The notes below the pieces were generated by a model. That model ran no database searches. It had not been told where the DNA came from and saw nothing but the letters and a program-made list of their open reading frames with translations. A stretch of 64,000 bases of DNA from Branchiostoma floridae. Taxonomy: Eukaryota; Chordata; Leptocardii; Amphioxiformes; Branchiostomatidae. The position numbers were made by a program, and so were the translations under genes. Shown here piece after piece: positions 25,722 to 28,800 of the stretch; the first letter of the stretch is position 1; every line of letters begins with the position of its first letter. The stretch covers positions 16,178,900 to 16,242,899 of the forward strand of contig NC_049979.1 of assembly GCF_000003815.2 (NCBI RefSeq). Direction: 5' to 3'.

Positions 25722-25807
25722 TCAGGTGCACCTGAACTGGCTACCAGAGGAAGAGTAGGAGAACTTCTCAAAGTGTGGCTTCTCCTCATCTATGGTGTCC
25801 AAAGGAG
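25722..25807 (-). CDS. AKT: AKT alternative last coding exon, distal copy
   Basis: 86 nt with CAG acceptor in the same phase and stop TGA (25722-25724). It encodes junction Ser, then [19 protein letters not shown] and a tail ending QFRCT. By my count 24 of 28 residues match the proximal copy, most nucleotide differences being synonymous. Confidence 0.88.
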
Positions 25808-28800
25808 CTGCAAGAGAAAACACTGATGCGTCAGACTGTAGGTCAGATGAATAATGCCCTTCTGGCTGGGGGGCCATGGCCACTAAGCATCAATTAAGGG
25901 GACAAAATCAACTTAAAGCAAAACCAAACTAATATAAATTAGATGAAAGAATTAAAACAATAATAACTAAAAAAAATTAAAGCAATGCTCAATTACAACT
26001 GAAGTAGTGATCTTAGAGATAGTGTGACTATAAAGCCTTTGGTTCAATATTTCTAATGATTGCAGCTTGTCTTTGGGATACATGTACCTTACATCCCAAA
26101 CTTCAGAGCCCTGCATAAGAAATTTGGCATAATTCCATATTGTCTCTAACTTCACTACTTTTGACTTGTCTGTTGATCAATTTGCTCACATTGGGGGAGG
26201 GGGGCGAGAACACTTCTATCAGGTACCCCTAAAATGACTGCCAGAGGAAGAGTATGAGAACTGTTCAAAGTGTGGCTTCTCCTCATCTATGGTGTCTAGT
26301 GGACCTGCAGTAGACGTAAGAATATACATGTTGCAACTTGCAAGTGACAAGCTAATGATGACTCAAAACATTTTGTCACAGAGAGAATGAAAAATAGGCT
26401 GAAAATCAAAATGTGAAAATCGAAATCATGAAACAAATTGATAAATAACTTAACTATCCATTTTCTCCATCTATGCATAACAACCCTATCTGAAGGTACT
26501 TTCACAAACCATCAACCACAAATATACAAAACAAATATCAATATCTTCAGGTAGCATAATCTACTTCATATACAACACCTATTATATATTATATATTTCT
26601 TGTATTTGCCCTCATAGCCAATTTATGTCATATGATATATAAGATGAACTGGTAGTTTAAGATTATATTGTGTATACTAGTGGGACATGACTTGTCTAGA
26701 GGGGAAAGCTTTCTGACATCCTTTCTTTAGTAAAATTGGATGCCTAGAGTGTGTTATGAGATCAATGTATGATTGAAAGCAAGGCAACACCACTCCTGTT
26801 TACTGAAGGTATACTTACAAGATTCGGTAGGTGGTGTAAGCTCCACAGATTCCCCAGTGAATTCCTTATCAAAGTAGCGAGTATCTGTGTCTGATGACAC
26901 CTGAGGCTTGAATGGTGGTGTCAACTGAGGGAAAAAATATACAATGTTATAATCATACAAAACTTTGTGTCTTAGGCCACAACAAGTATATTTATGGATG
27001 ACATCATTGAGCACATTGATTTTTGACAATGTATAATTTAAAAAAAATAGTATTCCCCCCCCTGGCCAAAATGGTCGCCTTGTGTGGAGTTCTTAAAGTT
27101 ACACTAGTGTGGAACTAGTTATAATGAAACTAACTGTACAGGTGATAGCTGTGTGGTATCCTTGATCATGAGTCTAGTTGTTAAGTTATACTAGGCTAGC
27201 ACAGCAGTGTCACTTCCTACACTCCTTCAATACAGGAAATAACTGGGCAGGAAGAACTCCACTATATGCAGGATGAACACTATAACAAGAAAAAAAGACA
27301 ACCAACCCTCCTCTCATACACATCCTGCCAGTTGATGTCTGCAGTAGCAAAGAAAGGATGTTCCTTCACGTCATCAGCATCCCTGATGCCTCCACCAAGT
27401 CTACAGCAAAAGAAAAATCCTCATTTGCACTGCTCATCTATAAAAAAACAGCACTTTTTCAGCTTAAAAAAGTTAAATGTCATTATTGCACAAGCTATCT
27501 TGAAGTATTTTGTTGCCAATGCATGATTCAGTGCTAAATCTTGTAGAGCCTGTTCCCAGTACAGAGATACAAGTACAACCCTAAGACACTGACAGGTGAG
27601 ACCAGCCTGTACCACCATGGCATGGCTCTCTATCTGCAGTTATCCTTTTGTCATAAGGTCAACTGAGAATAGTCAGCATTATAAAACTTTTTGACCAATA
27701 ATACATTGTATCTAATGCTTTCAAACTACCTAATGCTTTCAAACTACTAAATGCTTCAAGTTACCTCTGCTTGGGGTCCTTGATGAGCAGACCTGACAGC
27801 AGGGACTTGGCATTCTCAGTGATATTTCTAGGAAACCTCGCCTCCTCCATCAGGATCAGTTCAAACAACACCTCATGGTCCTTATTGTAGAATGGCAGCC
27901 GACCACACATCATCTCATACATGACCACACCAAGGCCCCACCAGTCCACAGGACGACCATAGTCATTGTCCTCAAGGACCTGCAATGGTAAAAACTATCT
28001 ATTCAATATGACCATTTGTCAAGAGAGATACACTCATACAGTCAAGCACTAGGGCTCCTCATCAAACCAGGTACAAAATCCCTTCTTTGTGATTATCCTT
28101 CAGAAACAAAACTTGCAACTAAATGGTACCAGCATACTGAGACAATACCTAGAAACTTCTTTGTCATGTGCTTCTTTGCTGTCTTATGGCTCTACTTCTC
28201 AACAAACAGTCTGTTCTTAAAGCATACACAAACCTCTGGTGCCAGGTATTCTGGTGTGCCACAGAAAGTCTTTGTAGTGGAATCAAATCTCATGTCCTCT
28301 TTACACAGCCCAAAGTCTGTGATCTTGATGTGACCATCCTTATCCAGCATCAGGTTTTCCAGCTAGGACAACAAGAAGAAGAAAAAGGTTTAGAACACAC
28401 ATCAACGATAACATGAGAAATGTTTAACGTAGGATGACGGTTTCAAATCAATATGTGAGTTGGATACCTCTCCTATGTCTTTCCTACTTGATGTAAAATG
28501 TAGACTTATCTATTTATTCTGCATGTAAATGTTCAGTACCAACATTGCACATAGATGTTCAGTATTGACATTGCATGTAGATGCTCAATACCGTAATTGC
28601 ATGTGGATGTTCAGTACTAAATGGTTATCAAGTCCAGAAACAAGACCTTTGAAAAATCTGTTGAAACTTGTCCCAATCCTCACCTTCAGGTCTCTGTAGA
28701 TAATGTTGGCCTTGTGTAAGTAGTCTAAGGCTGACACAATTTCTGCCCCATAAAATCTTGTTCTGTCCTCAGAGAACACCCGCTCCCGAGATAAATGGAA

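Follow-up and report, generated by a model that had tools for sequence, protein, structure and literature searches.

A lancelet AKT gene with two tandem last coding exons, each carrying the hydrophobic motif

The AKT locus of the lancelet Branchiostoma floridae, where two closely similar last coding exons lie in tandem, raises the question of whether a single AKT gene maintains and uses both as alternative ends. We analyzed a 64-kb window of contig C1, the whole stretch of DNA under study, and found a complete AKT gene on its minus strand, running from 36038 to about 25364. Exons were placed by alignment to the human AKT1 sequence, and all lie on the minus strand. The coding part of exon 1, with an inferred start codon, occupies 35975..36038; exons 2 (33466..33591) and 3 (33013..33124) encode PH-domain sequence, and exon 4 (32119..32278) holds the end of the PH domain together with the PH-kinase linker. 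The kinase domain with its glycine-rich loop appears in exon 5 (31716..31847), followed by exons 6 (31440..31505) and 7 (31059..31127), the catalytic loop in exon 8 (28684..28806), the activation loop in exon 9 (28234..28362), and exons 10 (27765..27979) and 11 (27307..27400). Exon 12 (26819..26924) is the last shared exon; it encodes the turn-motif region and ends in phase 1 at the donor CTT|GTAAGT. Joining the 12 shared exons to either tail exon gives 1482 nt in frame, and thus two 493-aa proteins without internal stops. Pfam analysis of the joined copy-2 protein returned PH (67.7 bits), Pkinase (259.5 bits), and Pkinase_C (40.0 bits) matches, placing a PH domain, an AGC kinase domain, and a C-terminal AGC extension in the order that defines AKT/PKB. 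When the copy-1 protein was compared to the PDB, all 23 of the 23 sequences at E <= 1e-150 were RAC-alpha or RAC-beta (AKT1, AKT2). The AKT1 alignment, the Pfam domains, and the PDB matches together confirm that the gene is AKT, as the initial annotation had proposed.

Several other features of the window were recorded. On the plus strand within AKT intron 7, between 29184 and 30500, lie two open frames, 124 and 273 aa long; neither has a Pfam match at E 0.01, the 273-aa frame has no PDB match at E 0.1, and the two may represent either the remains of a mobile element or an exon nested in the intron. A minisatellite at 46879-47235 consists of 11.7 copies of a 30-nt unit, a multiple of three, inside a 193-aa open frame on the plus strand, and two arrays about 1 kb apart (47575-47657 and 48630-48708) share a similar unit, a G run followed by CCATTGAAAAATTTTT. 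There were no tRNA or Rfam matches in the 64-kb window.

The two tail exons, copy 1 (26219..26304) and copy 2 (25722..25807), both on the minus strand, follow the exon at 26924-26819. Each is 86 nt long including its TGA and has the same acceptor phase; 411 nt separate them, and their acceptors are 497 nt apart. They encode tails of 28 residues that are identical at 24 of 28 positions, the two isoforms differing by C466S, Q480K, H489Q, and G492C around a regulatory S473-type serine at S482. At the nucleotide level 13 positions differ, nine of them third codon positions, and these differences are scattered over both ends of the exon. Coordinates, phase, length, separate stops, the 411-nt spacing, the four residue changes, and the 13 nucleotide differences all agree with those first reported for this locus. 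The exon-to-exon local score was 111, compared to a best score of 22 among 300 dinucleotide shuffles, and the pair accordingly qualifies as two homologous tail exons with equal acceptor phase and their own stops.

We then asked whether these exons occur elsewhere. In a protein search of the 513-Mb, 431-contig assembly, with one tail and the shared exon together as the query, the AKT locus alone matched among the best nine candidates scored, the shared exon at one place and the tails at two, and no third tail copy appeared among those nine. Within the window there was likewise no third copy (next-best E 0.30 with the copy-1 peptide and 0.060 with the copy-2 peptide), and a DNA search of the assembly placed the AKT tail region in one place. 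Lancelet genomes are highly heterozygous, and an assembly in which two haplotypes were falsely placed in tandem might produce such a pair. We reject this explanation as very improbable, given that the exons differ by 15%, that the upstream and adjacent downstream flanks match no better than chance, far beyond allelic divergence, and that the DNA search of the assembly located this region nowhere else.

To evaluate how the two copies have evolved, we compared silent and replacement differences. By Nei-Gojobori counting, 9 of 17.3 silent sites and 4 of 66.7 replacement sites differ (dS 0.88, dN 0.063; Fisher P 3e-5), and a codon model gave an omega of 0.115 with omega = 1 rejected (2dlnL 12.5), estimates that have wide limits because they come from one 28-codon pair. 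Setting either copy neutral for its whole branch lowered the log-likelihood by 3.2 units (2dlnL 6.4), with t = 0.28. We also examined the sequence surrounding each exon. Similarity breaks off at the exon borders: the 10 bases just before the exon have 8 matches, accounted for by the acceptor itself, and the 10 bases after the stop codon have 1. Among 300 shuffles, 143 were as good as the real comparison for the upstream 100 nt, 224 for the upstream 400 nt, and 88 for the downstream 100 nt; the downstream 400-nt comparison was weakly positive (10 of 300 as good), so the downstream flanks are perhaps not wholly decayed. In simulations, 94-100% of flanks were still detectable at t = 0.28 (three flank lengths, 200 runs each), compared to 14-17% at t = 0.61, the value from the constrained fit. 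These simulations use a substitution and indel model of our own choosing, with assumed rates and an interpolated 200-nt threshold, and they presume that the duplicated unit contained intron, as a tandem unit of ~497-nt spacing would have. Because a dead copy needs t = 0.28, at which flanks stay detectable, and the real flanks are mostly decayed, a dead-copy history fits poorly. Together, the omega of 0.115, its 2dlnL, and the mostly decayed flanks support the earlier suggestion that an excess of silent differences reflects maintenance of both copies, and it is likely that purifying selection has acted on both tails during most of their history.

The same dN/dS comparison, which had been proposed as a check, supports constraint on both copies while allowing that one of them lost constraint recently. 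Only one tail might be in use now; the other would then be a duplicate that is spliced very rarely or was silenced too recently to have decayed. A copy that was neutral during the last 30% of its branch alone fits nearly as well (lnL -157.8 vs -157.6), costing less than 0.3 log-likelihood units on either branch, and an alternative human AKT2 tail averages 1-2% of the standard AKT2 transcript, according to the portion of PMC7703976 that deals with it. However, neither copy has a frameshift, a premature stop, or a lost splice site, and long-term neutrality is disfavored by both the codon model and the flank simulation. We therefore regard a silenced tail as unlikely, and favor the maintenance of both.

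We next assessed whether the splice signals would permit both tails to be used. Copy 1 has an acceptor score of 9.7 and copy 2 of 8.6, both inside the 3.8-13.4 spanned by the other 11 acceptors of this gene, and of the 4048 minus-strand AG sites in the window only 0.9% and 1.6%, respectively, score as high. These scores, like those of the donors, derive from vertebrate frequencies, the acceptors being scored with a position weight matrix; by score, both acceptors are plausible for the spliceosome and of gene-typical strength. The description of the two exons as mutually exclusive was too strong, since each ends in its own stop and exclusivity is required at the protein level only; copy-1 transcripts can hold copy 2 untranslated. 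In the simplest model a single donor at the end of exon 12 (26819) would serve two competing acceptors. Joining exon 12 to copy 2 would give the K480 tail, and joining it to copy 1 would give the Q480 tail, with the sequence beyond the copy-1 stop becoming 3'UTR. This UTR could remain unspliced through copy 2 to an AATAAA at 25364, making the choice one of alternative 3' splice sites, or it could be spliced from a donor-like site at 26189 to the copy-2 acceptor, in the manner of PKC beta II. The candidate donor, AAT|GTGAGC (26184..26192, minus strand), lies 29 nt after the copy-1 stop and scores 7.3, compared to 3.4-12.0 for the gene's 12 donors; a donor equal or better occurs in 363 of 655 tiles, no better than chance, so the site is by itself no evidence. 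Nonsense-mediated decay is usually escaped if the stop lies within 50-55 nt of the junction, and the 29-nt distance falls inside that limit.

The 3' end presumed to be shared by both forms is the AATAAA at 25359..25364 (minus strand), 357 nt beyond the copy-2 stop. It is the single AATAAA or ATTAAA in the scanned stretches (26218-25808 and 25720-25000), and variant poly(A) hexamers are also present downstream of copy 2. Between the copies there is no AATAAA, no ATTAAA, and none of 11 variant hexamers, which is weak evidence that copy 1 lacks a poly(A) site of its own. The initial annotation had noted that AATAAA and ATTAAA are missing between the copies and had argued from this that splicing decides the tail; the observation is correct, and the argument fails, because such absence is commonplace. 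Both hexamers are missing from 387 of 636 window tiles and from 64% of shuffles, and all 13 are absent from 72 of 636 tiles and 6.2% of shuffles. The sequence itself establishes the gene anatomy, the reading frames, and the substitution pattern; that mRNAs use both acceptors, which 3' end they take, and any difference in activation between the isoforms are inferences.

Two further features of the interval and its exons were considered. An imperfect 25-nt inverted repeat lies between the tail exons at 26002-26160 on the minus strand. An RNA hairpin over this segment reached a z of -2.79, with 1 of 200 shuffles as good, but the region was chosen after the repeat had been seen; over the full 410 nt between the exons folding is ordinary (z -0.02, 50 of 100 shuffles as good), and we do not claim a hairpin between the copies. 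The two exons do not differ across codons 4-13, which include a purine-rich stretch, and this longest run of 10 consecutive codons has a permutation P of 0.017 for any difference and 0.072 for third positions only. The identity is no more than suggestive of a shared exonic splicing enhancer or a trace of gene conversion.

Closer inspection of the tails indicates where the two predicted isoforms would differ. They share the PH domain, the kinase domain, the turn-motif region, and FxxFSY, each tail keeping the S473-type serine S482, an mTORC2-type site, as expected of AKT. The hydrophobic motif reads HFEQFSYS in copy 1 and HFEKFSYS in copy 2, aligned to the HFPQFSYS of AKT1 and AKT2, and Q480K is the sole one of the four changes that falls inside it. 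PDB chains carry HFPQFSYS in AKT1 (6buu, 6npz) and AKT2 (8q61) and HFPQFCYS in AKT1 9zbk; copy 1 keeps the glutamine of these AKT chains, and in copy 2 this position, two residues ahead of S482, is a lysine. It had been suggested that vertebrates spread such variation over paralogues. For the motif this is unsupported, as of the four chains aligned FPQFSYS is present in two of AKT1 and one of AKT2, and FPQFCYS in the AKT1 chain 9zbk.

The remaining changes bear on whether the tails differ in function at all. In the sections of PMC8379990 that treat the AKT tail, the T479 position is described as hypervariable across AKT orthologues, and S475 is so described outside chordates. Since H489 is one residue and G492 four residues past the T479 equivalent, H489Q and G492C fall beyond a position reported as hypervariable and may mean little. 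Both copies may be expressed but interchangeable, through gene conversion or tolerated changes and without a regulated switch. Consistent with this, the FxxFSY core and the stretch preceding it are identical in both tails, two of the four changes lie beyond the hypervariable position (PMC8379990, in the same sections), and the 10 identical consecutive codons are explicable by conversion or a shared splicing enhancer. However, a conversion tract is unlikely to stop exactly at the acceptor and the stop codon, and the 13 differences lie at both exon ends. We consider interchangeable tails possible but rather doubtful; the odds that we assign to them overlap with those for two tails in use and are not exclusive, since both tails are expressed in each case.

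With respect to Q480K, a contact between pS473 and R144 has been proposed, with a basic patch of K140, K142, and R144 in the linker, in the portion of PMC12724016 that concerns the linker; R144A was without effect in the assays described in the relevant part of PMC8379990. By eye, the lancelet linker before the kinase domain reads STASHKV and retains one basic residue of the K140/K142/R144 patch. As a matter of speculation, K480 might change the charge near the phosphoserine.

Precedents for such an arrangement exist among related and unrelated genes. The closest is PKC beta (PRKCB), also an AGC kinase, which has two alternative last exons with the motif in both, as outlined in passages of PMC7703976 and PMC3537621. 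According to those of PMC3537621, inclusion of the beta II exon leaves the last exon untranslated, under the control of Akt, Clk1, and SRp40, and in lancelet AKT the stop of the upstream version would similarly render the downstream version untranslated. The two cases differ in that the PKC beta tails measure 50 and 52 residues and share 45% homology, whereas the AKT tails have 28 residues and 24 identities; the PKC beta tail exons hold the turn motif as well as the hydrophobic motif, whereas the turn-motif region of lancelet AKT is in a shared exon; and expression of both PKC beta forms has been reported, whereas the lancelet pair is known here from genome sequence. Within AKT itself, the hydrophobic motif is encoded in the final exon, and all three human genes have alternative ends that lack it, as stated in the sections of PMC7703976 on AKT transcripts. 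The lancelet gene resembles human AKT2-13a and the AKT1 and AKT3 alternative last exons in that the final motif exon is swapped. In contrast to these human ends, the two lancelet ends are homologous duplicates that both retain the motif, and the human AKT2 alternative exon is without evolutionary conservation, per the same sections (PMC7703976). KRAS 4A/4B, also a case of alternative last exons, is another signaling gene in which splicing chooses between two last coding exons encoding regulatory C-termini; it is unrelated, its tail serves membrane targeting, and nras exon 4 has been proposed as the source of its exon 4A (PMC9882654, in the part that covers the two exons). Among the open-access literature matches listed, there was no AKT with two motif-bearing last exons and no report of the lancelet AKT tail exons, and the phrase 'amphioxus Akt' was not found. 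Tail anatomy of the PKC beta type is thus already known, and its occurrence in AKT is new among those matches.

We also asked whether other AGC kinases of the same genome have paired tails. A Pkinase_C search of the assembly returned at least 9 places in 8 loci among the best 18 candidates scored, and the seven non-AKT loci, 8.5-9.9 kb each, were examined with human tails. Five of the seven have one tail exon, one (L018) has no hydrophobic-motif match to these queries, and one, a conventional PKC (L010), has two tandem motif-bearing tail exons. The latter lie on the plus strand of G000 contig C13, at 8503659-8503766 and 8505294-8505416, with turn and hydrophobic motifs in both, and are 55% identical over 47 residues. 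Compared to human tails, the downstream exon is 72% identical to that of PKC beta I, and the upstream exon is 64% identical to that of beta I and 51% to that of beta II. Because the upstream exon is nearer beta I, we did not assign the two exons one-to-one to beta II and beta I as orthologues. By eye, the upstream exon has a donor-like CT|GTATGT, and joining it to the downstream exon would create a TAA at the junction. The tail architecture of this gene recalls vertebrate PRKCB. AKT and the lancelet PKC are alike in having two tandem hydrophobic-motif tail exons; the PKC pair is the more diverged, and genome sequence is the source for both.

Collectively, the intact 493-aa AKT with either tail, the gene-typical acceptors, the silent excess, the mostly decayed flanks, and the PKC precedents favor a single AKT gene with tandem-duplicated last coding exons that are both maintained and both used as alternative ends, to which we give a probability of roughly three in four. 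A more ambitious proposal, in which the tail is a regulated splicing switch in the insulin/PI3K pathway and the Q480 and K480 forms would differ in mTORC2 phosphorylation, PIF-pocket binding, or dephosphorylation, strikes us as improbable. If it were true, one gene would have two activation thresholds, and AKT could even steer its own tail choice, as AKT in mammals influences the PKC beta tail switch via Clk1 and SRp40 in the account given in parts of PMC3537621. The importance of the arrangement would be greatest if tail choice were tissue- or nutrient-regulated. The hydrophobic motif is lost from the human AKT splice tails described so far, whereas a gene offering two intact, selected versions of it would be a natural experiment on the residues around the S473-type site in a kinase that is otherwise identical. 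The presence of both an AKT pair and a conventional PKC pair in one genome would suggest that the swapping of AGC tails by splicing arose, or was kept, more than once.
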